From: Micrococcus flavus
Lineage (GTDB): Bacteria > Actinomycetota > Actinomycetes > Actinomycetales > Micrococcaceae
Length of the DNA stretch: 64,000 nucleotides
Reading direction: 5' to 3'
Assembly (NCBI RefSeq): GCF_014204815.1
Contig: NZ_JACHMC010000001.1
Span: 1,178,001 to 1,242,000 of the forward strand
Shown here piece after piece: positions 32,619-45,192 of the stretch. Under the pieces are notes generated by a model that worked only from the letters and a program-made list of their open reading frames with translations, had not been told where the DNA came from and searched no databases. A program made the position numbers and the translations under genes. Numbering within the stretch: position 1 is the stretch's first letter; the number at the start of each line of letters is the position of its first letter.

Positions 32619-32882
32619 TCAGAGGTGCCGGTAGACGTCCTCGAGGCTGATGTCCTTGGCGATCATCAGGGTCTGCAGGTGGTACAGCAGCTGCGAGATC
32701 TCCTCGGCGGCCTCGTCCTTGGTCTCGTACTCGGCGGCCATCCACACCTCGGCGGCCTCCTCCACGATCTTCTTGCCGATCGCATGGACGCCGGCGTCCA
32801 CCTGGGCGACGGTCCCGGAGCCCTCGGGGCGCTCCTGCACCTTGCGCGTCAGTTCCGCGTACAGCTCGTCGAAGGTCTTCAC
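32619..32882 (-). CDS. hisE: Phosphoribosyl-ATP pyrophosphohydrolase
   Basis: This 87-residue all-alpha enzyme hydrolyses phosphoribosyl-ATP to phosphoribosyl-AMP. The MazG-like metal site is in [17 protein letters not shown] and [16 protein letters not shown]. The GTG start lies six bases after TAGGGT (32889-32894), another leaderless pattern. It begins the hisE-hisG-hisF transcript and is the last backbone gene before the accessory island. Confidence 0.95.
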
Positions 32883-32888
32883 GGGACC

Positions 32889-32894
32889 ACCCTA
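32889..32894 (-). promoter_or_regulatory. Candidate -10 box of the hisEGF operon
   Basis: TAGGGT on the minus strand is followed by GGTCCC and the hisE GTG. Confidence 0.55.
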
Positions 32895-33038
32895 GCGACC
32901 CGGCCCCTCCAGCCCGGACCGCAGACGGTCATTGTGACGGGCGGGACGGCGGGGTCTTCGCCACGCGCTGCACCCGCGAGCCCACGTGGGACGCCCCGGC
33001 GACCCAGCATCCTCCCCTGACATGTCTGCACGCTCCTC

Positions 33039-33143
33039 CTATTCCATCGGGGGCTCGAGCGCGAAGCACCGCGGCTCCAGGACGAATCCAAGAGACTCGG
33101 TCATCCTCCGGGCGGCCGCCCGGGCCCACCGCGCCAGATCCAT
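33039..33143 (-). pseudogene. Remnant of a GNAT acetyltransferase C-terminus
   Basis: The minus strand from ATG 33143 to TAG 33039 reads 34 codons with RRMTESLGFVLEP followed by a short tail ending ALEPPME. The M-x-E-S-L-G-F element is typical of the last strand-helix of GNAT proteins. No upstream acetyl-CoA motif is found in this or neighbouring frames, so only the end survives. The call rests on one motif. The rest of the hisE-33205 gap shows nothing I can name. Confidence 0.35.
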
Positions 33144-33191
33144 TCGGCGACGCACGCATCCATCTCGTCGACTTCCCGAGCCCCCCCAACC

Positions 33192-33197
33192 TAGGCT
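33192..33197 (+). promoter_or_regulatory. Candidate -10 box of the orphan gene at 33205
   Basis: TAGGCT, followed by seven bases and ATG at 33205, with no Shine-Dalgarno sequence between them. Confidence 0.5.
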
Positions 33198-33204
33198 CCC
33201 GGGC

Positions 33205-33735
33205 ATGGAGATCACCGCCGGGCGGCGCGGCCGCGCCTACGTCGCCGACTGGGAACAGGGATGCTGCGGCGAGCGGGTCCTCCTGGGAGAAATCGTCGAC
33301 ATGGTCCTCCTCCCCTTCTCGGATGAGGACCAGGATCCCCCGCTCGGACCCGTGGACTGGATCATGACCCACCACGATGACGGCGACCCATCCCGCCCCG
33401 CCCACCGAGTAAGCGCCCGGCTGCAGCGGGTGCAACAGATCCACTCCCGATGGCGGGTGGCATCGGGCAACGCGGTGGAAGGCGTGGAATGGGAGCGGGC
33501 TCCCGGTGCTGCGCAGCTCGTGGAGAGGGCGCGGCTGCCCGGCAGAGCCGATATGTTCAGCCAGGTCCCGGAGGAGCCCGGCGCCGCAGGCATGTCCCTT
33601 TTCCCCCTGGCCCCAGGGGCCCCGATGCTCTCCTCCGAGGCCAGTTACAGCCCCGTGCTCCCCGAGCCGCCCGGCCCTGACGGTTGGCTCCTGGACCTGG
33701 AGATCCTCGCGGACCTCGGCCCGCAAGCCGAATGA
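33205..33735 (+). CDS. Hypothetical protein with N-terminal W-E-x-x-CCG motif
   Basis: I do not recognise this 176-residue protein firmly. The N-terminus YVADWEQGCCGERVLLGEIV resembles small actinobacterial proteins of the DUF6578 type, which start with a D-W-x-x-x-C-C-G-x-x-F motif, but the rest cannot be matched by eye. It is acidic, has no signal peptide or membrane segment, and the ending WLLDLEILADLG looks like a closing strand-helix. It is transcribed alone and is predicted leaderless. Position at the left edge of the accessory island suggests acquisition by transfer. Confidence 0.6.
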   Translation: MEITAGRRGRAYVADWEQGCCGERVLLGEIVDMVLLPFSDEDQDPPLGPVDWIMTHHDDGDPSRPAHRVSARLQRVQQIHSRWRVASGNAVEGVEWERAPGAAQLVERARLPGRADMFSQVPEEPGAAGMSLFPLAPGAPMLSSEASYSPVLPEPPGPDGWLLDLEILADLGPQAE

Positions 33736-33949
33736 CGGGCCGCCATGCTCGCCCAGACGCGAACCGGTGCACCGCCGTGCGGGGCGTCGGCCGACTCCCA
33801 CCGGGGCTGACCTGCAGGTCCCCGTCAGACTGTCCCACCACGTCATAGACCCTCCGACACTTCTGTCCAATAGCCCGGGCCGGGACCGTGACTGACGTGA
33901 TGGCCTTGTGGGCGGACAGGGTGTGTAACGGGGTATACCCGGCTGGACG
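33736..33949. other. Gene-free stretch at the left edge of the metal-resistance island
   Basis: No frame here looks like a gene on either strand. The base composition is less GC-extreme in parts (for example TGTAACGGGGTATACCC near 33922-33938), which suggests accumulated remnants. It ends at the short paired IS ends that begin at 33950. Confidence 0.4.
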
Positions 33950-34020
33950 CCTAGGGCGTGTCTGATAATGCTTCGAGGGTTTGGCTAAGGCCCTGGACCC
34001 ATTCTCAGACACGCCCTAGG
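33950..34020. mobile_element. 71-bp paired IS ends (MITE-like or collapsed IS) flanked by CTAG
   Basis: Arms 33950-33965 and 34005-34020 are perfect 16-bp inverted repeats. The outer bases form CTAG on both sides and the inner part starts GGCGTGTCTGA. CTAG or TA target duplications are known for the IS427 group of the IS5 family, so this could be an internally deleted element of that type (inference). No transposase is left. The right end interrupts the cmtR-like gene exactly at the CTAG. Confidence 0.6.
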
Positions 34021-34148
34021 TCGCGGGCGAGTACCGCCGGGTAGCTCGGGCCCTCGAGGAGTGTCATGAGGATGCGGGGGCGGGTCGGGTCGGCCATCGC
34101 CCGGCCCAGCCGGTTCATCACGTCCAGCCGCGAAGCAATAGTCAGCAT
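34005..34148 (-). pseudogene. CmtR-like ArsR-family metal sensor, truncated by IS ends
   Basis: The minus strand from ATG 34148 reads 44 residues matching the CmtR N-terminus: NRLGRAMADPTRPRILMTLL, then YPAVLARDLG. At the CTAG of the IS end the frame runs into element sequence and stops after G-R-V. The recognition helix and the later Cys ligands of CmtR are missing, and they are not found on the other side of the element, so the 3' part was lost. In intact CmtR a Cys at position 4 binds Cd/Pb; here that position is Ile. The fragment is divergent from the intact CadC-like regulator at 34227. Confidence 0.8.
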
Positions 34149-34206
34149 GCGCTGACCATACAGAACCTGCTGACCTCTCGTGTGTGGCTCCCGCTGCTGA
34201 TATCTG

Positions 34207-34218
34207 CATAGGTGTATG
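34207..34218. promoter_or_regulatory. Possible ArsR-family operator
   Basis: CATA-GGTG-TATG is a small inverted repeat overlapping the -10 box TATGGT (34215-34220) of the next regulator. ArsR/SmtB proteins often bind AT-rich repeats of this kind to block RNA polymerase. The TATGGT box lies six bases before ATG 34227, a leaderless pattern. Confidence 0.4.
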
Positions 34219-34226
34219 GTCGTGGC

Positions 34227-34601
34227 ATGAGTGTGACGCCGTCGGATTCGTGTCAGGTCACCGCCGTCCATCCGGAGAAGGTGGCGCTGACCCGGGAGAG
34301 GATCCCCGACGAGCGCGAGGCCGGCAGGTTGGCCGGGCTGTTCAAGCTCCTGGGGGACCCGCGCCGTGCCCGGGTGCTGTATGCGTTGCTGGAGGCCGGC
34401 GAGCTGTGCGTATGTGACCTGGCGGCGTCGGTCGATGTCGCGGAGGCGTCGGTGTCCCAGGTGCTGCGGGTGCTGCGTACCGCTGGGGTGGTCGAGAACC
34501 GCCGGGAGGGGCGGATGGTGTACTACCGCCTCGCTGACGGGCATGTGCGGATGCTGCTGGACGTCTCCCGTGAGCACGCCCGCCACGAGGGGCAGGGCTG
34601 A
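34227..34601 (+). CDS. ArsR/SmtB-family metal-responsive repressor (CadC/CzrA-like)
   Basis: This 124-residue winged-helix repressor should release DNA when it binds zinc, cadmium or lead. Two metal sites can be read. The alpha-3 site is ELCVCDLA, as in CadC, with an extra Cys at residue 9 of the N-terminal arm. The alpha-5 site follows D-x-H-x10-H-x2-H exactly, in ADGHVRMLLDVSREHARH, as in SmtB/CzrA. The recognition helix is EASVSQVLRVLRTAGVV. The ATG at 34227 is chosen from the TATGGT box just upstream. The stop overlaps the exporter start (TGATG), so the sensor and pump form one operon. Confidence 0.88.
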   Translation: MSVTPSDSCQVTAVHPEKVALTRERIPDEREAGRLAGLFKLLGDPRRARVLYALLEAGELCVCDLAASVDVAEASVSQVLRVLRTAGVVENRREGRMVYYRLADGHVRMLLDVSREHARHEGQG

Positions 34602-35512
34602 TGGGGGCGGGACACAGCCATGCCCCGGCGACCGGGCATGCCGGTGGCCGCTACCGTCGGCGGCTGGCGGGGGCGTTCGCCCTGACGGCGGGCTTCTTCC
34701 TGATCGAGCTGGTCGCGGGGCTGGTGTCGGGGTCGTTGGCGCTGCTGTCGGATGCCGGGCACATGGCTGCCGATGTGGTGGTGCTGGGTGCGGCGCTGCT
34801 GGCGACGCGCATCGCGAGCCGGCCGGACTCCACGGGGCGACGCACCTATGGCTCCTACCGGGCCGAGGTGTTCGCCTCGGCGTTGGCGGTGCTGGCGATG
34901 CTCGCGGTCGGGGTGTACGTGGTGGTCGAGGCCATCAGCCGGCTGGGCGACGCGCCGGAGGTGGCCTCCGGCGCCATGCTCGCGGTCGGCTTCGCCGGCC
35001 TGGTGATCAACATCATCTCCATGCTGCTGCTGCGCAGCGGGGCCAAGGACAGCCTGAACGTCAAGGGCGCCTACTACGAGGTGATCGCCGACGCCGCCGG
35101 GTCGGTGGGTGTCATGGTCGCCGGCGTGCTGATCATCCTCACCGGCCAGCCGATCTGGGACGTCGTGGTCGCGGCGCTCATCGCGGTCTTCGTCATCATC
35201 CGGGCGGTGGTTCTGGGCAGGCAGGTGATCGCGGTGCTGGGCCAGCACGCCCCGGAAGGGGTGGACCCGGAGGACGTCGCCGGTGACCTGGACGCGGTCG
35301 AGGGGGTGGAGGAGGTCCACGACCTGCACCTGTGGACCCTGACGTCGGGGATGAACGTGGCCACGGCCCACCTGGTCGCTGACCAGGGCGCGGACCACGG
35401 CGCCGTGCTTGCCGGCGCGCGCCGGGTGCTGCGCGACCGTTACGGTATCGCCCATGCCACCTTGCAGGTGGAGGGCGCCGGCAGCGACGGCTGTCACGAC
35501 CTGAGCTGGTAG
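34601..35512 (+). CDS. czcD: Cation diffusion facilitator, CzcD-like Zn/Cd/Co exporter
   Basis: This 303-residue CDF transporter exports divalent cations in exchange for protons. Six transmembrane segments lie at about 22-45, 50-70, 88-108, 123-145, 158-180 and 185-203, followed by a cytoplasmic ferredoxin-like domain with VHDLHLWTLTSGM. The helix-2 metal site is SDAGHMAAD (HxxxD). The matching helix-5 site reads YEVIAD (ExxxD), where many zinc CDFs have HxxxD. His-rich ends (GHSHAPATGH at the start, GCHD at the end) fit metal loading. It is controlled by the overlapping ArsR-type gene. Confidence 0.92.
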   Translation: MGAGHSHAPATGHAGGRYRRRLAGAFALTAGFFLIELVAGLVSGSLALLSDAGHMAADVVVLGAALLATRIASRPDSTGRRTYGSYRAEVFASALAVLAMLAVGVYVVVEAISRLGDAPEVASGAMLAVGFAGLVINIISMLLLRSGAKDSLNVKGAYYEVIADAAGSVGVMVAGVLIILTGQPIWDVVVAALIAVFVIIRAVVLGRQVIAVLGQHAPEGVDPEDVAGDLDAVEGVEEVHDLHLWTLTSGMNVATAHLVADQGADHGAVLAGARRVLRDRYGIAHATLQVEGAGSDGCHDLSW

Positions 35513-35576
35513 CACTCGGCACGGAAGCCCGCTCGCGAGAGCCGCACATGCTTGAGCAACGTCTTAGGAGCGCGCG

Positions 35577-35717
35577 ATGACCGCGAAGCACGGCAAGGGC
35601 CCCGGGCCGGACGAGGGCCAGCGGCCGGCCCGGCGCGGGGTGGTGCTCACCCTGCTGGGGATCGGTCTGGTCGCCGCGGCTTACGTGGTGACGATCGTGG
35701 TCATGGTGGTGCGGTGA
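35577..35717 (+). CDS. Small single-pass membrane protein (46 aa) after czcD
   Basis: ATG 35577 has AGGAG 7 bp upstream. The peptide has a hydrophilic Gly/Pro/Lys start (MTAKHGKGPGPDEGQ), two Arg, then one hydrophobic helix of about 25 residues rich in Val, ending in Arg. It lies 64 bp after czcD on the same strand. I know no named family. A tiny positive-inside membrane peptide beside a transporter could be an accessory of the exporter (inference). Confidence 0.6.
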   Translation: MTAKHGKGPGPDEGQRPARRGVVLTLLGIGLVAAAYVVTIVVMVVR

Positions 35718-35988
35718 CGCGGCCCAAACGGACCGCGGCCTCATGGCGGCGCCGCAAGGCGGTCATCGCGTCGTCCAGTGCTGTCCTCGTCGGGTCGAGC
35801 ACGTAGAGGTCGTGAAGACGTCCAGATATAGGCCTGGGACGGGAGTTCTTGCATCGACTGAACTCCCCGGTGGTTGCAGGTCCGATACGCAGGGGTGCCA
35901 GTAAGTAGGGCTGATCGGCGCCCATTTTCTTGTCTCGCGCCCCGGGGCGAGGCGGTCCCCTATCGGTGTCCCTGTGTGCGGGGCAGGT
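35718..35988. other. Intergenic remnant between the czcD operon and merA
   Basis: No complete gene. On the minus strand a frame from about 35830 to 35701 reads GRLHDLYVLDPTRTALDDA and then ALRRRHEAAVRLGRVT before a stop. It looks coding-like but has no convincing start, and I cannot assign it. The 3' end overlaps the last codons of the small membrane protein on the other strand. Confidence 0.35.
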
Positions 35989-37437
35989 TCACGCCGCGCA
36001 GCAGGAGAGCTTGGCGATGTCGGTGGTGAAGGCCTGTGCGGTGAGCTTGAGGCCTTCGGCCATGGTCAGGTAGGGGCTCCAGAGGTTGGCGACCTGGCTG
36101 GTGGTCATGCCGGCCTCGAGCATGTAGACCCCGGCGGCGGCGAGGTCGCCGGCGTCCTGGGCCAGGGCGGTAATGCCGATGATGCGGCCGGTGTCGGCGT
36201 CGGTGACCATCTTGATGAACCCGCGGGTGTCGCGGTTGACGATCGCGCGTGGGACGTGCGCGAGTGACAGGACACGGCTGTCGTAGCGGATCCCGGCAGC
36301 GGAGGCCTGCCGTTCGGTCATCCCGACGGCGGCCAGGGCGGGGCTGGTGAACACGACCCGGGGCAGGTGGCGGTAGTCGACCTCGAGGCCGGCGCCGGTG
36401 AGGGCGTTGTCGGCGACGAGGGCGCCGTGGGCCGCGGCGACGTACACGAACTGACGGTGGGCGGTGACGTCACCGGCAGCCCAGACGCGCGGGTTGGTGC
36501 TGCGCAGATGGCTGTCGACGACCACCTCGCCGTGGTCGCCGGTGCGCACGTCGACGGTGTCGAGACCGAGCGTGGCGGTGACCGGGCGGCGCCCGGTGGC
36601 GACGAGTACCTCGGCCGCCCGGAGTTCCTGTGAGCCGTCAGTGGTGGTGGCAGTGACCGTGACCTCGCCGGTGGCCGGGTCGCGGCGGACCGCGCTGGGC
36701 ACCGCGCCGCGGATGATCTGGATGCCTTCGTCCGTGAAGATCTCATCCAGGGCGGTGGACGCCTCGGGTTCTTCCTGGGACGCCAGCCGTGAGCGGACCA
36801 GCATGGTGACCCGGACGCCGAGCCGAGCGAAGAGCTGGGCCTGCTCCATCGCGACGTAGCCGCCGCCGATGACCAGCAGCGACTCCGGGACGTGGTCCAG
36901 TTCCATCGCGGTGGTCGAGGTCAGGTAACCGGCCTCCTGCAGGCCGGGGACCGGCGGCGCCCAGGGCCTGGAGCCGGTGGCGATGAGGTAGTGTGCGGCC
37001 CGGACCGTCTCCACCGTGCCGTCAGGGCCGGTGACGCGCAGTGCCGGCTCGCTGGGTGTGCCGACGAACGTGGCGTCCCCGGGGTGGAGATCCCATCCGT
37101 ACTCGGTGGCCAGGTCCAGGTACTTCTCGCCACGCAGTGACCCGACGAGCCGATCCTTGCCGGCGATCAAGGCGGGCATGTCGACCGGCCGGACTTCGGG
37201 GAGCGGCAGGCCGGGGAACCGGGAGGCGTCGAGTGTGACGTGGCGGGCCTCGGCGGTCGCGAGCAAGGCCTTGGAGGGCACGCACCCGGTGTTCACGCAG
37301 GTACCGCCGACGGTGCCACGCTCGATCATCACCACCCGTCTGCCGAGGTTGGTGGCGCGGATCGCGGCCGCGAACGCCGCCCCACCGGACCCGATCATTG
37401 CCAGGTCATACGACCTGCTGTTAGCCGTTGCCGTCAT
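35989..37437 (-). CDS. merA: Mercury(II) reductase
   Basis: This 482-residue flavoprotein reduces Hg(II) to Hg(0) with NADPH. The FAD-binding GSGGAAFAAAIRA lies near residue 15, followed by the redox pair GGTCVNTGCVPSKALL. The NADPH-binding IGGGYVAMEQAQ is in the middle. The C-terminal dimer domain ends KLSCCAA, with the paired Cys that distinguishes MerA from other disulfide reductases. No N-terminal MerP-like HMA domain is present. The ATG at 37437 is chosen for AAGGAGGA 4-5 bp upstream. It is divergent from merR across a 24-bp palindrome; no merT, merP or merB is in the window. Confidence 0.93.
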   Translation of the reverse strand: MTATANSRSYDLAMIGSGGAAFAAAIRATNLGRRVVMIERGTVGGTCVNTGCVPSKALLATAEARHVTLDASRFPGLPLPEVRPVDMPALIAGKDRLVGSLRGEKYLDLATEYGWDLHPGDATFVGTPSEPALRVTGPDGTVETVRAAHYLIATGSRPWAPPVPGLQEAGYLTSTTAMELDHVPESLLVIGGGYVAMEQAQLFARLGVRVTMLVRSRLASQEEPEASTALDEIFTDEGIQIIRGAVPSAVRRDPATGEVTVTATTTDGSQELRAAEVLVATGRRPVTATLGLDTVDVRTGDHGEVVVDSHLRSTNPRVWAAGDVTAHRQFVYVAAAHGALVADNALTGAGLEVDYRHLPRVVFTSPALAAVGMTERQASAAGIRYDSRVLSLAHVPRAIVNRDTRGFIKMVTDADTGRIIGITALAQDAGDLAAAGVYMLEAGMTTSQVANLWSPYLTMAEGLKLTAQAFTTDIAKLSCCAA

Positions 37438-37465
37438 GAACTCCTCCTTCATCGCCCTCAGGATC

Positions 37466-37489
37466 GACCTTCCAGTGCACTGGAAGGTC
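37466..37489. promoter_or_regulatory. MerR-family operator shared by merA and merR
   Basis: A perfect 24-bp palindrome whose half is GACCTTCCAGTG. The ACCTTCC/GGAAGGT halves are the classic heavy-metal MerR recognition pattern. On the minus strand TTGACC overlaps one edge and can serve as the -35 element of merA, with the palindrome filling a long spacer, as expected for MerR-type promoters. The same site lies just upstream of merR and allows autoregulation. Confidence 0.85.
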
Positions 37490-37508
37490 AAGGGGGAGAA
37501 TGAGTGGC

Positions 37509-37898
37509 ATGCGGATCGGTGAGGTGGCTCGGGCGTCGGGCACGACGAGCAAGACCCTGCGGTACTACGAGGAGGTCGGGCTGCTACCCGCCGCGGACCG
37601 CACCCCGGCGGGCTACCGGGACTACGGCGCCGAGGTGCTCGACCGGCTGGACTTCATCCGCCGGGGGCAAGCGGCCGGGCTGACCCTGGCCCAGATCGGT
37701 CAGGTGCTGGACATCCGCGACCGGGGGCAGGCCCCCTGCCGGCACGTCACCGACCTGCTCGACACCCGCCTTGATGTGATCGACCGGCAACTCGCCGAGC
37801 TCGCGCAGCTACGCACCACGATCGCCGACCTGCGCGAGGACGCCGCCGCCGGCGACCCGGCCACGTGCTCCCCCGAGGATGTCTGCCGCTACCTGTGA
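37509..37898 (+). CDS. merR: MerR-family heavy-metal-responsive regulator
   Basis: This 129-residue regulator has an N-terminal winged helix (MRIGEVARASGTTSKTLRYYEEVGLL), a dimerisation coiled coil (about 80-112) and metal-binding Cys residues at 77, 120 and 126 (QAPCRHV and CSPEDVCRYL). Three Cys in these places fit the thiol-binding MerR/ZntR group. The adjacent merA points to Hg(II). Start choice: ATG 37509 has GGGGGAG about 9 bp upstream; an in-frame ATG at 37500 is possible but too close to that site. Confidence 0.88.
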   Translation: MRIGEVARASGTTSKTLRYYEEVGLLPAADRTPAGYRDYGAEVLDRLDFIRRGQAAGLTLAQIGQVLDIRDRGQAPCRHVTDLLDTRLDVIDRQLAELAQLRTTIADLREDAAAGDPATCSPEDVCRYL

Positions 37899-38380
37899 CA
37901 CCGAAGTTCACGGGCCCGTGGCAGCGCATGGCGGCCCACTCTGTTGCGTTGGGGTGTTAGACCTTTCGCAACGGTTCTGTTGCGCGGGGTGCACCCTATC
38001 GCGACGCCTATTCCTCCGGCCTGCCGTCGGCCGCTGTCCCGGTGAAGGATCGGCTTGCGGAACGTGAGCCTCACTCGCAGCGCCCTCTTGCCCGCGTGCT
38101 TGGAGGCCGCCACTGAGCTCCGACAGAACCCCGCCATATAGCGGCGCAAGCCACACCGAGAGACGCGCCCCCGCTAAGGACGGCGATGGGCCACTGCCTT
38201 TATCGGTCGTTTCTGGCGTGGTTCCCAGACGCCTCCGGCAGTCTCCCCAAGTTGCCTGCCAGACGGCCGAAGACTGGCCTCAATCAGTTCGCCACAACAC
38301 CGGCCCCAGCAGGGTTTGTGGCAGACGTCTTTCAGCCTGCCCACGTTGCGCAGTGAACACGGGGCCGGCAACCAGGGCGC
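37899..38380. other. Gene-free stretch between merR and the partition remnant, with IS-like ends
   Basis: No convincing gene on either strand. GGTTCTGTTGCG at 37973-37984 resembles IS6-family terminal repeats, and an inverted GGTTCTGT copy ends at 38130 (ACAGAACC on the plus strand). The enclosed 158 bp has no transposase. GTTGCG occurs three times in 37943-37984. The stretch is less GC-rich than the backbone and probably consists of collapsed mobile DNA. Confidence 0.45.
37973..38130. mobile_element. Possible IS6-like remnant or MITE (158 bp)
   Basis: The two ends share inverted GGTTCTGT; after that the match breaks (TGCG against CGGA). IS6-family elements commonly start GGYTCTGTTGC, so one end fits and the other is diverged. 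There is no transposase frame inside. This is a tentative call from short end similarity only. Confidence 0.3.
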
Positions 38381-38458
38381 TCAGGGGTTCTCAGCCATGG
38401 AGGGGCAGGCGTCTCCGATGGCCTGGAGGATCAGCTCAGACCCTTCGGCCTGGCGCAC
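38381..38458 (-). CDS. Very small ORF (25 aa) directly after the RHH gene, doubtful
   Basis: On the minus strand GTG 38458 opens a frame containing RQAEGSELILQAIGDACPS and ending AENP at TGA 38381-38383, four bases after the RHH gene stop. The composition is protein-like and helix-forming. There is no Shine-Dalgarno sequence, so it may be the end of a broken gene. Confidence 0.25.
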   Translation of the reverse strand: MRQAEGSELILQAIGDACPSMAENP

Positions 38459-38461
38459 CGG

Positions 38462-38758
38462 TCAGGGCATCAGGTGCGCGCGGACCAAGGCTTCAATGAC
38501 CGCGGCCTGGCTGGGCGTTGCCGGGTTCGTTGCGGCCTCTCGACGCACCGCGTCGCGGATCGCTTCGGGCACCCGCACGTTCAGCGCCACGGTCGGCGCC
38601 CCCCGCCGGGCCAGGGGCGCATACCCGCCGGCCGGGTCCGAGGCTGTTGCCGGTGCTGCGGGGATCACCGCTCCGGGGGCCGGGGTCTGGGGGGCCGGGG
38701 TGGGCTTGCGTCGCTGTGCTCGCAGGCTCAGGTCGGGTTCGGACTGCTTCTCGTTCAT
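38462..38758 (-). CDS. Ribbon-helix-helix partner of a plasmid ParA (ParB-like)
   Basis: This 98-residue protein has a disordered Pro/Ala-rich first half. A C-terminal ribbon-helix-helix follows, with VALNVRVPEAIRDAVRREA then PSQAAVIEALVRAHL. Small RHH proteins of this design serve as the DNA-binding partner of ParA in type Ib plasmid partition. Its ATG overlaps the parA stop (ATGA), the usual coupling in par operons. It appears intact although parA is truncated. Confidence 0.7.
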   Translation of the reverse strand: MNEKQSEPDLSLRAQRRKPTPAPQTPAPGAVIPAAPATASDPAGGYAPLARRGAPTVALNVRVPEAIRDAVRREAATNPATPSQAAVIEALVRAHLMP

Positions 38759-39063
38759 GCGGTGATCCTTTCGAAGATGAGGCCGGCCAGGTCGGCGTAG
38801 GCGGTGGCGACGGGTTCGCCCTTCTCGTAGCGGCCCAGCCAGTCGCAGGCCAGACGTGCCTTGGGGACGATGGAGCGGGCCGGCACCAGGGGAGTGAGCA
38901 GCAACCCGGTCTCGCGCAGCTCCTCGACGGCCACGGTCTGGTCCTTGGGGGTGATGTGATCCTTGTAGTCCGAGACGACGATGCCCACCTCGGTGAGCCG
39001 GTCTACAGCTCCCAGCAGGGCCATGGACTGTTTGAACGCGGCCACGCTCTGGTGGTCGATGAC
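38755..39063 (-). pseudogene. parA: ParA-type partition ATPase, 5'-truncated
   Basis: Only the last 102 codons remain. They read VDRLTEVGIVVSDYKDHIT, then AVEELRETGLLLTPLVPARS, then YADLAGLIFERI, the C-terminal part of a Walker-type ParA/MinD ATPase. The P-loop and Walker B region are missing. The frame stays open upstream of about 39063, but the residues there no longer look like ParA and no start is apparent, so the junction with backbone DNA lies near 39064-39075. This marks a fragment of an integrated plasmid. Confidence 0.7.
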
Positions 39064-39283
39064 GGGCCGTGGATGCCGCGAGCGAGACGAAAGGGCGGGG
39101 GCTTCGCGCTCCGCCTCTATCGTCGGGTCCCCGCGCCCTCCGGCCGACCCCATCCATGACGGCGAGCGGCTGCCGGCGTTCCGGACGGGCACGGCTGACA
39201 GGCCTGCGCTCACCCCCACCGGCCCCTGGGACAGGGCCCCATCAAGAGCAGCCGACTCGCCAGGCCGCCCCGCCCGGCCATCC
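39064..39283. other. Junction stretch between the plasmid remnant and ribH
   Basis: No gene seen. A stem with one bulge around 39221-39239 (GGCCCCTG and CAGGGCC) lies 45-63 bp after the ribH stop and may end the rib transcript. The boundary between backbone and acquired DNA lies somewhere here. Confidence 0.35.
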
Positions 39284-39766
39284 TCAGTGCCGCGGCGTGA
39301 CCGAGCGCAGCGCGATCTCGGTGAGCACGGCGGCCTCGAGGGCCTCCCGGCCCTTGTCCTCGCGGGAGCCGGGCAAGCCGGCGCGATCGCGGGCCTGCTG
39401 CTCGGTGTCCACGGTGAGCACGCCGAAGCCCACGGGCACGCCCGTGCGCACCGACACCTCGGTGACGCCCTGCGTGACGGACTGGCAGACGTACTCGAAG
39501 TGCGGGGTGCCGCCGCGCACCACCACGCCCAGGACCACGACGACGTCGAACGACCCCACCAGCCGGGCCGCGGCCACGGACAGCTCCACGGTGCCGGGCA
39601 CACGGACCAGCGTGGGCTCCAGGCCGAGGTCGGCCGCGGCGGCCTGCGCCCCGGCGATCAGGCCGTCCATGATCTCGGTGTGCCACTGGGCGGCGACGAT
39701 CGCGACGCGCAGCCCGGCGGCGGCCTGCGGGTCGAGGGTGACGGTGGGGGCTCCTGCTCCGCTCAT
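39284..39766 (-). CDS. ribH: 6,7-dimethyl-8-ribityllumazine synthase
   Basis: This 160-residue enzyme condenses the pyrimidine and dihydroxybutanone phosphate intermediates into lumazine. Active-site segments are [46 protein letters not shown] and [13 protein letters not shown]. The ATG overlaps the ribBA stop (ATGA). It is the last gene of the rib operon. Confidence 0.96.
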
Positions 39767-41091
39767 GGGGTGTCCTCCTGGGTCGGGGTGGTGGGGGTGC
39801 TGGGGGCGGCTGGGGTCGCCGGGGAGGCGTCCCCGAGGTCGCGGCCGGCGAGGTCGTGGTCCATGCGGTCCCGCTTGGTGCGCAGGTAGCGCCCGTTGTG
39901 GGCCGTCACGGGGGTCGGGGCTGGGACGCGGTCGACGACGTCGATCCCCGCCGCCCGCAGGCCCTCCGCCTTGGCGGGGTTGTTGGTGACCAGGCGCACC
40001 CGGGTGATGCCGGCGTCGCGCAGGACGGCGGCGGCGCCGTCGTACTCGCGGGCCTCGGCGGGGAACCCGAGCGCGAGGTTGGCCTCGACCGTGTCCAGGC
40101 CCTCCTCCTGCAGCCGGTAGGCGCGGACCTTGTTGGCCAGGCCGATGCCGCGGCCCTCGTGTCCGCGCAGGTACAGCACGCCGCCGCCGTGGGCCGCCGC
40201 GTCCGCGAGCGCGGCGTGCAGCTGGGGGCCGCAATCGCAGCGCAGGGAGCCGAAGACGTCGCCGGTGAGGCACTCGGAGTGCAGGCGCAGGGTGACGGGG
40301 GCGTCGGGGTCGCCGCCGGGACCGGGGGCGAGGAGGAGCACGTGCTCGGCGCCGGTGGCGGGGTCGGGGTGGACGCTGACCCGGAAGTCGCCGTGGACGG
40401 TGGGCAGGGAGGCCTCGGCCGGTCCGGGGGTGGCGGCGGGCCGGTGGGCGTCCAGGTGGGCCACGAGGTCCTCGATGGAGATGAGGACGAGCCCGTGCTC
40501 GTCGGCGAAGTCGCGCAGGGCGGGCAGGCGCATCATGGTGCCGTCGTCGTGGACGAGCTCGGCGATCGCGGCGACGGGCGCGGTCCCGGCGAGCTCGCAC
40601 AGCTCGACGCCGGCCTCGGTGTGCCCGCGGCGGGCGCGGACTCCCCCGGGCACGGCGCGCAGGGGGAAGACGTGGCCGGGGCGGGTGAGGGCGGCCGGCT
40701 CGGCGTCCGGGTCCGCGAGGGTGCGCAGGGTGACGGTCCGGTCGGCGGCGCTGATGCCGGTGGTGACGCCGGCGGCCGCATCCACGGAGACGGTGTAGGC
40801 GGTGCCCTTGGGGTCCTCGTTGACAGCAGTCATGGGCGGCAGGTCGAGCCGGTCGGCCAGCTCGGCGGGCAGGGGCGCGCAGATGACGCCGGAGGTGTGC
40901 CGCACGGTGAAGGCGGTGACGGCGTCGGTGGCCAGGGCCGCGGCGTAGATGAGGTCGCCCTCGTTCTCGCGGTCGGCGTCGTCCACGACGACGACGGGGC
41001 GGCCCGCGGCGATCGCGTCCACCGCGGCCTGGACCGGGTCCAGGCGGATGTCGTCGGGGTGATCGGTGAGGGGCTGTTCGGTGACGTTCAC
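39763..41091 (-). CDS. ribBA: Bifunctional 3,4-DHBP synthase / GTP cyclohydrolase II
   Basis: This 442-residue fusion supplies both starting branches of riboflavin synthesis. The N-terminal DHBP synthase (about 15-215) shows [19 protein letters not shown] and [12 protein letters not shown]. The C-terminal cyclohydrolase II (about 230-415) has the zinc site [19 protein letters not shown] and the [12 protein letters not shown] loop. The Pro/Thr-rich last 25 residues are unusual but harmless-looking. The GTG start overlaps the ribE stop. Confidence 0.96.
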
Positions 41092-41729
41092 GCGCGGTCC
41101 TCCCGGGCGGCGGGGACGGCGGCGAGGCGCTCGGCGTAGCGGGCCATGACGTCGGTCTCCAGGTTGACGGGGTCTCCGGGGGCGAGGTCGGCCAGCGTGG
41201 TGGCCTGCAGGGTGGCCGGGATGAGGCCGACCTCGAACCAGTGCTCGACGGCGTCGGGGACGGACACGGCGGTGACCGTGAGGGACACCCCCTGCAGGGC
41301 GATGGCGCCCTGCGCGGCGACGTACCGGGCCAGCGCCACGTCGAGTCCGATGCGCAGCGTGGTCCACTCGCCGTGCTCGGTCACCTCGAGCACGGTGCCG
41401 ACGCCGTCCACGTGCCCCTGGACGAGGTGCCCGTCGAGGTGGTCGGTGGGGCGCAGGCAGCGCTCGAGGTTGACGCGGTCGCCCGGGCGGCGCGCTCCGA
41501 GGCTGGTCATCCGCAGGGTCTGGCCCATCAGGTCGGCGCGGAAGCGGCCGTCAGCGGACTCCGGGCCGTTGAGGGCCGTGAGGCACACGCCGTCGACGGC
41601 GAGCGAGCCGCCGGCGGGCAGCCCGTCGAGGGCGCCTCCGGCGTCGAGGGTCAGGGTTGCGGTGTCCGCCTCCGGGTGCTCCTCGAGGGAGACGACGGTG
41701 CCAAGGTGGGTGATGATCCCGGTGAACAT
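41088..41729 (-). CDS. ribE: Riboflavin synthase alpha chain
   Basis: This 213-residue enzyme dismutates two lumazine molecules to riboflavin. Two lumazine-binding repeats are visible, starting at the invariant [12 protein letters not shown] and at [26 protein letters not shown] and GVSLTVTAV are the matching substrate loops. The ATG lies 1 bp after the ribD stop codon. Confidence 0.95.
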
Positions 41730-41730
41730 G

Positions 41731-42840
41731 TCAGTCCTTCGCGGTGGGGGCCAGATGGAACAGGACGTCGTCGCCGAGCGTGCGCACGGGACCGCCCTCG
41801 GACGGGTCGGGGGCCCAGCGCAGGCCCTCGGCGAGGGTGCCCACGGGCAGCCCGGCGACGGCGGGCAGGCCCGGCCCCAGCAGCAGCGGGGCGGTGTAGG
41901 CGAACACCTCGTCGACGAGTCCGGCCGCGAGCCATGCGCCGAGCACGTGGGGACCGCCCTCGATCAGCAGGTGTCCGGGGCGGGATCCGCCGTGGGGCCA
42001 CGGACCCGGGTGGGCGGCCAGGGTGGCGAGGACCGCGTGCGGGTCGTGGGAGCGCACGTGGATCAGGTCCGCGCGGTCCGCGAGCGCGGCGCCGGCGGGA
42101 AGGTCGCGGCGGCCCTGGATCACGGGGACCGGCTGGACGGTCAGGTCGGCGCCCACGGCGTCGCGGGCGGTCAGGCGGGGGTCGTCGGCGGCGACGGTGC
42201 CGGTGCCCACGACGATCGCGTCGACCCGGGCGCGCACCTCGTGGGCGTGGGCGCGGGAGGCGGGCCCGGTGATCCAGCGGCTGGTGCCGTCGGCGGCGGC
42301 GGCCTGGCCGTCGAGGGACTGGGCGAGGTGCGCGGTGACCCAGGGGCGGCCGGCGTCGCGGACATGGCGCCAGCGGTCGGTGAGCGCGGCGGAAGCGGCA
42401 TGGCCGGTGGGGCCGGTGACGCGCACCCCGGCCCGGGCCAGGCGGGCCGCTCCCCCGCCCTCGGCACCGGTGGCGTCGGCGACGGCGTAGCGGACGGCGC
42501 CGAGGCCGGCGTCCAGGATGGCGAGGGAACACGGACCGGTCGTTCCGGTGTGGTCGCACGGCTCGAGGGTGACGTGCATGGTGCAGGCGGCGGGATCGAC
42601 GGCGGCGAGCGCCCGGTCCTGGGCGCGGGCGGCCCGCCAGCGGGTCAGGGCGTCGGCCTCGGCATGAGGGGCGCCGCGGCCGCGATGGTGGCCGACGGCG
42701 AGGACCGCGCCATCGGGGCCGCTGATCACGGCACCGACCAGCGGGTTGGCGCCGCGCACGCCCTCGAGGGCCGCGGCGGCGGCGAGGTCGAGCGGCTCGG
42801 CGGGGGACGGCGTCGTCGGGCAGGGCTGCGGGAGACTCAC
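41731..42840 (-). CDS. ribD: Bifunctional riboflavin deaminase-reductase
   Basis: This 369-residue protein has an N-terminal deaminase (about 10-145) and a C-terminal reductase (about 155-369). The zinc site is PHAEADAL with TLEPCDHTGTTGPC. The reductase shows AHLAQSLDGQAA, DAIVVGTGTVAADDPRLTAR and LLIEGGPHVLGAWL. The GTG start overlaps the ribM stop (GTGA). Confidence 0.94.
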   Translation of the reverse strand: MSLPQPCPTTPSPAEPLDLAAAAALEGVRGANPLVGAVISGPDGAVLAVGHHRGRGAPHAEADALTRWRAARAQDRALAAVDPAACTMHVTLEPCDHTGTTGPCSLAILDAGLGAVRYAVADATGAEGGGAARLARAGVRVTGPTGHAASAALTDRWRHVRDAGRPWVTAHLAQSLDGQAAAADGTSRWITGPASRAHAHEVRARVDAIVVGTGTVAADDPRLTARDAVGADLTVQPVPVIQGRRDLPAGAALADRADLIHVRSHDPHAVLATLAAHPGPWPHGGSRPGHLLIEGGPHVLGAWLAAGLVDEVFAYTAPLLLGPGLPAVAGLPVGTLAEGLRWAPDPSEGGPVRTLGDDVLFHLAPTAKD

Positions 42841-43541
42841 CGGGCGACCCCCTCGGCGGGGCCGTCCGGCAGGAGCGTCTCCACGGCGGGCTTCTCCCGG
42901 TCCTTGGCGCGCAGCCACACCACGAACCCGGTGAGGGTGAACAGGCCATAGACGGCGTACATGACGGCGGAGGCGTAGTAGCCGCTGCTCCAGAGCAGGG
43001 GGACGCCGACGACGTCGACCGCCACCCACACGAGCCAGAACTCGACCCAGCCGCGGGCCATGCCGTAGGTGGCCAGCAGGGAGCCGACGAAGGTCCAGGC
43101 GTCCGCCCACACCGGCTCCCAGGAACCGAGGGCGCGGAACACCGGGGTGAGCGCGAGGGTGCCGACCAGCATGCCCAGCGCGAGGAATGTGCGCCCGCCC
43201 CCGCCGGCCCACTCCGGGGTGATGGCGGGGGCGCTGGCCGCGCGGCCCCGGCGGGCGGCGTTCCAGCGGGCCCAGCCGTAGACGGAGACGGCGATGAACA
43301 TGATCTGGCGGCCGGCCTGGCCCAGGAGGGTGGCGTGGTCCGCCCCGCCGAACAGGGACGCGAGGAAGACGGTGAGCAGGATCAGGTTGCCGAGGATGCC
43401 CACGGGCCAGGCCCAGACCTTGCGGGCCATGCCGCCGAGGGCCGAGGCGAGGCCGAAGACGTTGCCGACCACCTCGCGCATCAGCAGGCCGCCGCCGGCC
43501 ACGGGGATGGTCCAGTTGAACAGGTCGACGAGCCAGTCCAC
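42837..43541 (-). CDS. ribM: Riboflavin transporter of the PnuX/RibM type
   Basis: This 234-residue membrane protein belongs to the PnuC-like family, with about seven to eight hydrophobic segments. Conserved elements are WPVGILGNLILL, GRQIMFIAVSVYGWARW and EFWLVWVAVDVVGVPLLWSSGYY. PnuX/RibM proteins import riboflavin and are found under FMN riboswitches in Corynebacterium and Streptomyces, as here. GTG 43541 is chosen for the GGAGGAGA about 9 bp upstream and the family-like DWLVDLFNWTIPV start. Confidence 0.88.
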   Translation of the reverse strand: MDWLVDLFNWTIPVAGGGLLMREVVGNVFGLASALGGMARKVWAWPVGILGNLILLTVFLASLFGGADHATLLGQAGRQIMFIAVSVYGWARWNAARRGRAASAPAITPEWAGGGGRTFLALGMLVGTLALTPVFRALGSWEPVWADAWTFVGSLLATYGMARGWVEFWLVWVAVDVVGVPLLWSSGYYASAVMYAVYGLFTLTGFVVWLRAKDREKPAVETLLPDGPAEGVAR

Positions 43542-43556
43542 GGGAGCGGGTCTCCT

Positions 43557-43576
43557 CCTCGGATCGGTCTCCGAGG
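43557..43576 (-). promoter_or_regulatory. Possible Shine-Dalgarno-sequestering hairpin of the rib leader
   Basis: CCTCGGA and TCCGAGG form a 7-bp stem with a 6-nt loop. Its 3' arm includes the first AGG of the ribM ribosome-binding site GGAGGAGA, so folding would hide it. This fits translational control by the FMN aptamer. Confidence 0.45.
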
Positions 43577-43627
43577 GGTGCGCTCCGGGGCCCTGGCTGC
43601 GCCGGGGCGCGTGCAAGGGCTCGGCCG

Positions 43628-43769
43628 CGTGCCTCTCCCATCCCGACTGTACGGTCGGCACCGGAATTCCACCGGTCAGGCCGCGGACCCTGACCCTCGG
43701 GTGAGGGCGGGACGCGCGGTTAGCGGGCTGTCACCGCCGGTGCGGACTTCCACCGCATCTCGGAGCACG
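43628..43769 (-). ncRNA. FMN riboswitch (RFN element)
   Basis: The minus strand carries the RFN consensus in order: GCTCCGAGATGCGGTGGAAG, CACCGGCGGTGACAGCCCGC, GACCGGTGGAATTCCGGTGC and GGGATGGGAGAGGCACG. The ends CGTGC and GCACG pair as P1. It lies 87 nt upstream of ribM and would lower expression of the five-gene riboflavin operon when FMN is plentiful. Confidence 0.95.
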
Positions 43770-43782
43770 TTGCTTGCCAGCG

Positions 43783-43788
43783 AGTATG
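43783..43788 (-). promoter_or_regulatory. Candidate -10 box of the rib operon
   Basis: CATACT on the minus strand lies about 14 nt upstream of the riboswitch P1 stem and abuts the stop codon of the upstream hypothetical gene. No good -35 box is visible. Confidence 0.4.
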
Positions 43789-45192
43789 TCACGGCTCGGG
43801 ATCGAGGCTGAGCCCGGCCACGCCGATCCGATCGAGACATGCGAGGAGCTCCTCCTCGTCCTGGGTGAGCCGGTCCAGGACGGCCTGGACCCTCTTCAGT
43901 GCCGGCCGTGTCCCGTAGGCCATGAACACGTTGGCCTCCCCATCCAGCTCCACCCGGCGCACCTCCGCCGGGAAGCCCAGCTCCAGGATCCGGTCCCAGG
44001 TGTGGCCCGCGTGCTCCAGGCCCCGGGACTCGAGCACTGGAGTGGCCGGCACCGGCTGCATCGGCATGGTCAGCACGTACGTGCGCTCCTCCAGCCTCTC
44101 GATCGAGGCCACGCTCGAGCCCGTCACCAGGCGGGACACCGGCACGACCGCCGGTCCGCCCCCGGCGAAGACCTCCCCGGCCAGGCCGGCCGAGACCAGC
44201 ACGTCGACAACGCTCGCCAGCACCTCCGCCGAGGAGCACCACCACGCCAGCAGGGCCACGGCGTCCTCCACCGCCTCCCGCGGCCCACGCACCACCGTGG
44301 CGGAGTCCTCGCAGGCGATCCGCACCCCGGCCTCGGGCAGACACGGCCACCGCACGGAGAACAGCCCCGCCCAGAACACCCCCGGGTCCGTCACGCCCAT
44401 CCGCTGCAGCAGGCCAGCGATCTCCTCGCTCGGGGCAGGCAGGACAGCGCGGACCACGTCGGCCGTGGCGTCCTCCGGTGTCACCGTGACCGCCTCCAGG
44501 GCGGCCACCCTGATGCGCTTAGCAGGCCGGGTCGTCTGCGTGTGCAGGGCGCGGGCGTCGCGCGGCCCACGAGCGGCCGGTCCGAGGGCAGCCTCCATGA
44601 GCCAGTGGTTCGCCTTGGGCTCGCCACCCCAGTTCACCTGCGCGATCCCCGCGGCCGCGTCCCACACCGCCTGCGGCAAGGGAACCTGACGGACATCGAA
44701 GACCTGCAGATCTTTGACGGGAGACGAGACCAGGAGCTCCTCCAGGGCCAGGCATTCGCGGACCCCGTCCACCATCACTTCCTCCAGGGCGGGGGCCTTC
44801 AGGCCATGGAGGCTCACAATCGGCAGCAGCGCCCAAGATACAGTCTTCACAGTCGGAAGTCTGGGCCAGACTGTGGCCGCTGGTAGGCCGGTTCCCTGCC
44901 ACACCTGGAGATCCCGGATGTGGAATCTGGCCAACCCACCGATGTGCTCCGGCCGCGCGTAGCGCAACGTCAAAGACCTCAGTTTCCGCAGTCGCGCCCA
45001 CTCATGGAGGTGCTCGCTGGTCCTGCCCTCGAGGCTCCACGTCCGCGGGAAGGTCCGATCCGAGGGGTGTGGACCGATCGGTCCCTCGAAGACGAGCATC
45101 CGCGCCCATGTCAGATCCCCGATCGGGACCCCGTCCCACGACCCCGACTTCTGGACCTGGATGTACCCGTCGGAGTCCGACCACGCGGTCAT
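43789..45192 (-). CDS. Hypothetical protein, leucine-rich-repeat-like N-terminal half (467 aa)
   Basis: I do not recognise this gene. Residues about 25-190 show short repeating strands (ARLRKLRSLTLRYARPEHI, ARFHIRDLQVWQ, LHGLKAPALEEVMVDGV, SSPVKDLQVFDVRQV) like a solenoid of leucine-rich repeats. The C-terminal half mixes alpha and beta, with a Trp pair at AWWCSSAEV and an end DEEELLACLDRIGVAGLSLD. It has no signal peptide. ATG 45192 is preferred over an upstream in-frame ATG at 45249 because AGGAGG lies 5 bp before it. It is the last of three orphan genes between rpe and the riboswitch, and its stop touches the rib promoter. Confidence 0.75.
   Translation of the reverse strand: MTAWSDSDGYIQVQKSGSWDGVPIGDLTWARMLVFEGPIGPHPSDRTFPRTWSLEGRTSEHLHEWARLRKLRSLTLRYARPEHIGGLARFHIRDLQVWQGTGLPAATVWPRLPTVKTVSWALLPIVSLHGLKAPALEEVMVDGVRECLALEELLVSSPVKDLQVFDVRQVPLPQAVWDAAAGIAQVNWGGEPKANHWLMEAALGPAARGPRDARALHTQTTRPAKRIRVAALEAVTVTPEDATADVVRAVLPAPSEEIAGLLQRMGVTDPGVFWAGLFSVRWPCLPEAGVRIACEDSATVVRGPREAVEDAVALLAWWCSSAEVLASVVDVLVSAGLAGEVFAGGGPAVVPVSRLVTGSSVASIERLEERTYVLTMPMQPVPATPVLESRGLEHAGHTWDRILELGFPAEVRRVELDGEANVFMAYGTRPALKRVQAVLDRLTQDEEELLACLDRIGVAGLSLDPEP

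Follow-up and report, generated by a model that had tools for sequence, protein, structure and literature searches.

Plasmid scraps and a defective metal-resistance transposon between hisE and ribH of Micrococcus flavus: a probable two-layer mosaic

The hisE–ribH interval

In the 64-kb window of Micrococcus flavus DNA analyzed here, 6.4 kb lies between hisE and ribH. Coordinates refer to this window unless another locus is named. Both border genes are on the minus strand and were identified by Pfam profile searches: hisE (PF01503; 32619–32882) adjoins the interval at 32882, and ribH (PF00885), located upstream of hisE, forms the other border with its end at 39284. We compared the window's genome (G000; 2.55 Mb in two contigs, C1 and C2) with ten further genomes of the same genus. 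Four of the ten (G001, G002, G004, and G010) have empty sites, with only 54–69 bp between hisE and ribH. Because the two genes are adjacent in these congeners, the 6.4-kb stretch is a real insertion, as an earlier note on this DNA had proposed.

The same spacer carries other inserts elsewhere in the genus. G005 has a different insert with a pnuC-like gene (by eye), while G006, G007, and G008 (L004, L006, and L003) have a large membrane protein whose C-terminal domain is conserved, accompanied in two of these genomes by a small membrane gene. These inserts of other species are unrelated in content to the one seen in the window and in G003 (see below); hence, DNA has entered this spacer repeatedly, filling it more than once in the genus. 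In an alignment by eye, 10/10 genomes retain two elements ahead of the GTG start codon of hisE: a CGTCAC(A) motif at a distance of ~50–57 bp and, at ~10 bp, a TAGGGT-like box (32883–32940, minus strand, in the window). In every genome with an insert, the foreign DNA lies beyond these motifs, and hisE has therefore probably retained its own promoter. On the other side of the insert, a comparison of 39301–45114 with G003:C6 shows 82–84% identity across the rib genes and into the DNA that follows, against 97% farther on (45.4–50 kb) and at hisE. This drop hints at local recombination in the vicinity of the insert.

The central part of the interval is a block of metal-resistance genes. It begins with the 5′ part of a cmtR gene (34020–34148, minus strand) whose frame is intact in L031 and L032. 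An ArsR/SmtB-type metalloregulator with an ELCVCDL motif (34227–34601, plus strand; NF033788, 91 bits, cut-off 55) is followed by a cation diffusion facilitator (CDF) exporter (34601–35512, plus strand; PF01545; TIGR01297, 236 bits, cut-off 82) and by an ORF for a 46-aa protein with one hydrophobic stretch (35577–35717, plus strand). The merA gene (35989–37434, minus strand) encodes a mercuric reductase with a GTCVNTGC motif and a C-terminal CC, and exceeds the equivalog cut-off of TIGR02053 (559 bits, cut-off 454). It shares a promoter region with a MerR-family regulator (37500–37898, plus strand) whose family is clear, with no equivalog cut-off reached; a 24-bp perfect palindrome between the two genes, GACCTTCCAGTGCACTGGAAGGTC (37466–37489), is the probable operator/promoter. 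No merT or merP was seen with this pair in the window. Profile searches thus bear out the truncated cmtR, the sensor-exporter operon, and the merA/merR pair of the earlier note.

Other than the cmtR stump, the genes named above are in good condition: merA, the MerR-family gene, the palindrome, and the ArsR and CDF genes are intact, and these remaining metal genes should still work. Mercury reduction and Zn/Cd-type efflux are their likely activities; the MerR-type regulator would control merA, and thereby Hg(II) reduction, from the shared palindromic promoter, and ArsR would control the CDF exporter. Actinobacterial plasmids of Cellulosimicrobium and Corynebacterium likewise have a mercuric reductase gene with an adjacent MerR-family gene, but the window's pair has only 73–75% DNA identity to those copies.

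Plasmid remnants and an orphan gene at the edges

On the hisE side, the interval contains an orphan gene encoding a DUF6578 protein (PF20218; 33205–33735, plus strand). A GNAT remnant previously placed at 33.0–33.2 kb has no Pfam match and was rejected. Farther in, 33806–33949 (minus strand) is what remains of a plasmid serine resolvase gene: part of its upstream (res) region and its initial codons. At 73–86%, this remnant matches seven Micrococcus plasmids, beside genes labeled “recombinase family protein”, and nothing else in PLSDB; it also matches, in the same range, the 40.8-kb contig of the window's own genome (G000:C2), which has the resolvase as well. Near the intact resolvase/res region of that contig, L020:8238–14442 seems by eye to encode a protein with a TIR domain and a restriction-modification pair of type III.

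On the ribH side lies a C-terminal ParA fragment (38755–39051, minus strand), i.e., 98 residues of a 260-aa ParA, next to an intact 98-aa partner gene (38462–38758, minus strand). The earlier note had described a parA fragment with a ribbon-helix-helix partner; the fragment and the partner are there, while the family of the partner is a judgment by eye, its protein having no Pfam match. G006 has a full 260-aa ParA and a 98-aa partner (96% identical) at another place, and intact ParA homologues with 53–60% identity are carried by plasmids, among them ones from Arthrobacter, Kocuria, and Curtobacterium. Plasmid searches with 38150–38460 and with the partner protein gave no match. Within the former stretch lies the motif CGGTCGTTTGTGGC (38202–38217), with CGCCACAAC repeats close by; it is found again at junctions in several Micrococcus loci (L016:11978–11993 and L018) and may mark where some other mobile element ends.

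The par fragment has its intact homologues on actinobacterial plasmids, and the PLSDB matches of the res remnant are Micrococcus plasmids alone; both are plasmid scraps. The DUF6578 gene need not be plasmid-borne, since it has chromosomal paralogues. There is no replication gene among the interval ORFs read, and searches for this outer layer returned no near-identical plasmid. The nearest relative, G003 (93% identity at hisG–hisE), has the same DUF6578 gene in the same place beside hisE (L001; 98.6% DNA identity) and, beside ribH, the par stretch (L015; 95–97%) with the identical ParA truncation. These shared borders are on two contigs, with the interior between them falling in a contig gap. 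Because this sister species shares the outer parts of the insert, i.e., the DUF6578 side and the par side, they appear to be older than what lies between them.

The metal block as a piece of a transposon

The metal block (34020–38051; 4.03 kb) is 99.3–99.8% identical in G001, G002, and G007 (Micrococcus sp. EYE_212), at unrelated sites; G004 has a partial block (34015–35572) with the same range of identity, also at an unrelated place. These same species have 77–86% identity to the window at hisG–hisE. The block also occurs in Micrococcus terreus, Kribbia dieselivorans, Helcobacillus massiliensis, and one MAG, all four with a MerA 100% identical to that of the window, and in G226, a genome from another family. 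Genome comparison found no copy in G003, where the interior between the shared borders is the contig gap. In PLSDB, the best plasmid matches to the block reach 73–78%, with no near-identical record; the cadD–cmtR end of the same transposon is on plasmids at 99%. Since G003 is without the block, near-identical copies occupy other sites and species, and the block is a transposon piece (see below), it appears to be separate from the plasmid scraps and a later arrival than the outer layer.

In Kribbia, the block is inside a complete 11,154-bp element (L076:245–11398). The ends of this element read TGTGGCTTCG... and ...GAAGTCACA (TGT...ACA), with 24-bp-spaced repeats, and are flanked by an 8-bp target duplication, CTCGCAGA. 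The Helcobacillus copy is 99.6% identical and is flanked by the 8-bp duplication AATCCCGC. The order of genes is cadD–cmtR, merR/merA, small protein–CDF–arsR, cmtR–cadA–cadD, serine resolvase, rve/Mu-C transposase, and AAA ATPase, such that the cmtR stump of the window corresponds to the second cmtR and the 46-aa protein is part of the transposon. Pfam searches place the resolvase (Resolvase) at L076:8531–9124, the transposase (rve and Mu-transpos_C; PF00665 and PF09299) at L076:9135–10529, and the adjoining ATP-binding protein (AAA_22) at L076:10535–11344; all three are absent from the window. In Kribbia (L031:18–1422 and L076:11523–17000), the intact transposon apparently sits within a phage-tail-like (contractile injection) gene cluster, as judged by eye.

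Given the transposase/ATPase/resolvase set, the related, repeat-bearing ends, and the short target duplication, we class the intact source element by its architecture as a Tn552/Tn5053-like transposon. IS21-type ends, considered for the TGTGG... sequences, and a Tn3-type element, suggested by the resolvase, were both dropped because the intact element has a Mu-C transposase, an AAA ATPase, and a resolvase. Tn552 of staphylococci has a transposase with an ATP-binding partner and a resolvase, no TniQ, and a beta-lactamase cargo; compared by description, the source element has the same set, with no TniQ seen, but its cargo is metal resistance. The target duplication of Tn5053 is 5 bp. The source element also resembles CadD/CmtR cadmium cassettes (PF03596, NF047906) in having two cmtR and two cadD genes, whereas the window keeps only the stump of one cmtR.

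Mercury transposons of the Tn5053/Tn402 family are described as “res site hunters” (PMC7765201, PMC3960245). They have an rve-type transposase, an ATPase, a serine resolvase, and a mercury cargo in common with the source element. In Micrococcus genomes, ends of elements related to the latter abut plasmid res regions. The source element differs in being actinobacterial, in its cargo of cadmium, mercury, and CDF genes, and in its 8-bp target duplication, with no TniQ seen; the window copy is, in addition, defective. The ends that abut the plasmid res segment are at three positions (G003/G006, the window genome's own chromosome near 128.4 kb, and G002), while the two intact copies, in Kribbia and Helcobacillus, do not abut res sites. 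This pattern suggests, short of proof, that the transposon family targets res sites. The res remnant of the window was rejected as a target of the window's own transposon, since nothing interrupts it between 33806 and 33949. The same genome contains a second transposase-less relative of the transposon (L079:8433–11702, i.e., G000:C1 ~128.4–131.7 kb), with two probable termini, a resolvase, and a cadD–cmtR end (99.2%); the plasmid res segment is directly outside one terminus.

At the left edge of the window copy is a 63-bp MITE of IS5/DDE_Tnp_1 type (33954–34016), with 12-bp terminal inverted repeats (GGGCGTGTCTGA/TCAGACACGCCC) and a TA duplication (33952–33953 and 34017–34018). What had been taken for paired IS ends is, therefore, a genuine pair of inverted repeats within a TA duplication, but belongs to one small element with further copies, ~94–95% identical, in G002, G003, and G007. 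All Micrococcus copies of the block (G000, G001, G002, G004, and G007) break off at one and the same base of the second cmtR (element position 5224), where there is a CTAG of the kind seen at IS5-type insertions. What lies beyond this common cut varies: an IS5-type element, a different transposase gene, a MITE, or unrelated DNA, with the window and G002 sharing the 63-bp MITE. Since five Micrococcus genomes share the truncation base, the simplest reading would be a single truncation event, after which the shortened form spread.

At the right edge, homology to the intact transposon stops at a res-like junction of transposon modules (38028–38051; CTGTCCCGGTGAAGGATC). At 38051, the window parts from G001 and G002, whose copies run on into cmtR and cadD. 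The element copies of G006 and of the window genome's own chromosome (at 130.5 kb) likewise break off close to this point (position 1191), and several plasmid matches do too. Because the junction resembles a res repeat, CTGTCCGGTGAAGG, that precedes the resolvase in L031, module exchange is likely to have occurred here. The adjoining 38052–38155 (minus strand; reads TGTGGCTTGCGCC...) is, by resemblance, the probable terminus of a related Tn552/Tn5053-like transposon. It is also present in G007 C4, with a similar pattern at other ends; the opposite end is gone from the window, leaving no duplication to compare. The region of ~37.97–38.15 kb, formerly read as an IS6-like remnant, is better explained by this transposon-internal junction and terminus, and an IS6 remnant was rejected, as the genus genome comparison revealed no such copies outside the block. 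Without transposase, ATPase, and resolvase, the window copy is the middle of the transposon plus one probable terminus.

A probable history of the interval

On the reading of the earlier note, the interval is a captured metal-resistance plasmid that later eroded. In favor of this reading are the par and res remnants of plasmid type, with partition genes present and the metal genes between the two remnants, and the cadD–cmtR end of the transposon, which is itself plasmid-borne at 99%. However, G003 has the borders without the block, and the block is near-identical across families, whereas the par segment is 91–97% identical even to its nearest relative. Moreover, the transposon, where intact, lies elsewhere and is flanked by target duplications of its own. 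A plasmid search of the insert covers ≤30% of it, at 73–78%, and no replication gene is among the ORFs read; the res remnant does have its counterparts on Micrococcus plasmids, but for the window's block no plasmid match exceeds 78%. The lack of a plasmid match, which the earlier note had named as refuting its proposal, thus applies to the metal block but not to the res remnant. We consider capture of one plasmid unlikely: its plasmid remnants stand, while the metal block is a transposon piece with a separate history. Less probable still, to the point of being very doubtful, is an integrative genomic island that entered as one unit by site-specific integration. The insert is discrete, between two conserved genes, in a spacer that is a repeated insertion point, but no integrase is among the ORFs read, and the inserts of other species are unrelated in content. 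Direct repeats flanking the whole 6.4 kb are none beyond chance, the longest (9 bp) being the commonest value for random pairs, and an island with att repeats was rejected on this ground.

Instead, we favor, with a probability of roughly 85%, a mosaic of two layers: older plasmid scraps, then a recent, defective piece of a metal transposon. Plasmid-derived DNA (par and resolvase/res) and the DUF6578 gene would have arrived between ribH and the hisE promoter while the lineage was still shared with G003, and decayed afterwards. In Micrococcus, the transposon would have been cut in its second cmtR by an IS5-type insertion, with loss of cadA, cadD, the resolvase, and the transposase, and the truncated form would then have spread between species. 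A piece of this mobile multi-metal transposon may have joined the first layer recently through IS5-type activity, its left edge in the window being marked by a MITE of the same IS type. Module exchange near the res-like site would have removed the cadD–cmtR end from the window copy.

No paper in a partial literature library was recognizable as describing the 11.15-kb transposon, which is probably an undescribed member of a known, Tn552/Tn5053-like kind. A broader proposal, which we advance tentatively and at slightly less than even odds, is that an undescribed multi-metal transposon (two cadD, two cmtR, cadA, CDF, and merA) currently circulates across several families of Actinomycetes, swapping cargo modules at its own res and favoring plasmid res, with a transposase-less Micrococcus derivative that moves between IS5-type elements or MITEs.

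For the interval itself, “a plasmid was captured” would give way to an ordered series of events, with real, recent gene traffic in place of a single captured metal plasmid, and with the ribH–hisE spacer as the site of repeated insertions that spare the hisE promoter region. The window is in itself an ordinary mosaic; what is unusual is how fresh the inter-family spread of the transposon appears. Carriers of metal resistance are less well known in Actinomycetes than in Proteobacteria, and here a metal-resistance transposon occurs in nearly identical copies in different genera and families of this group.
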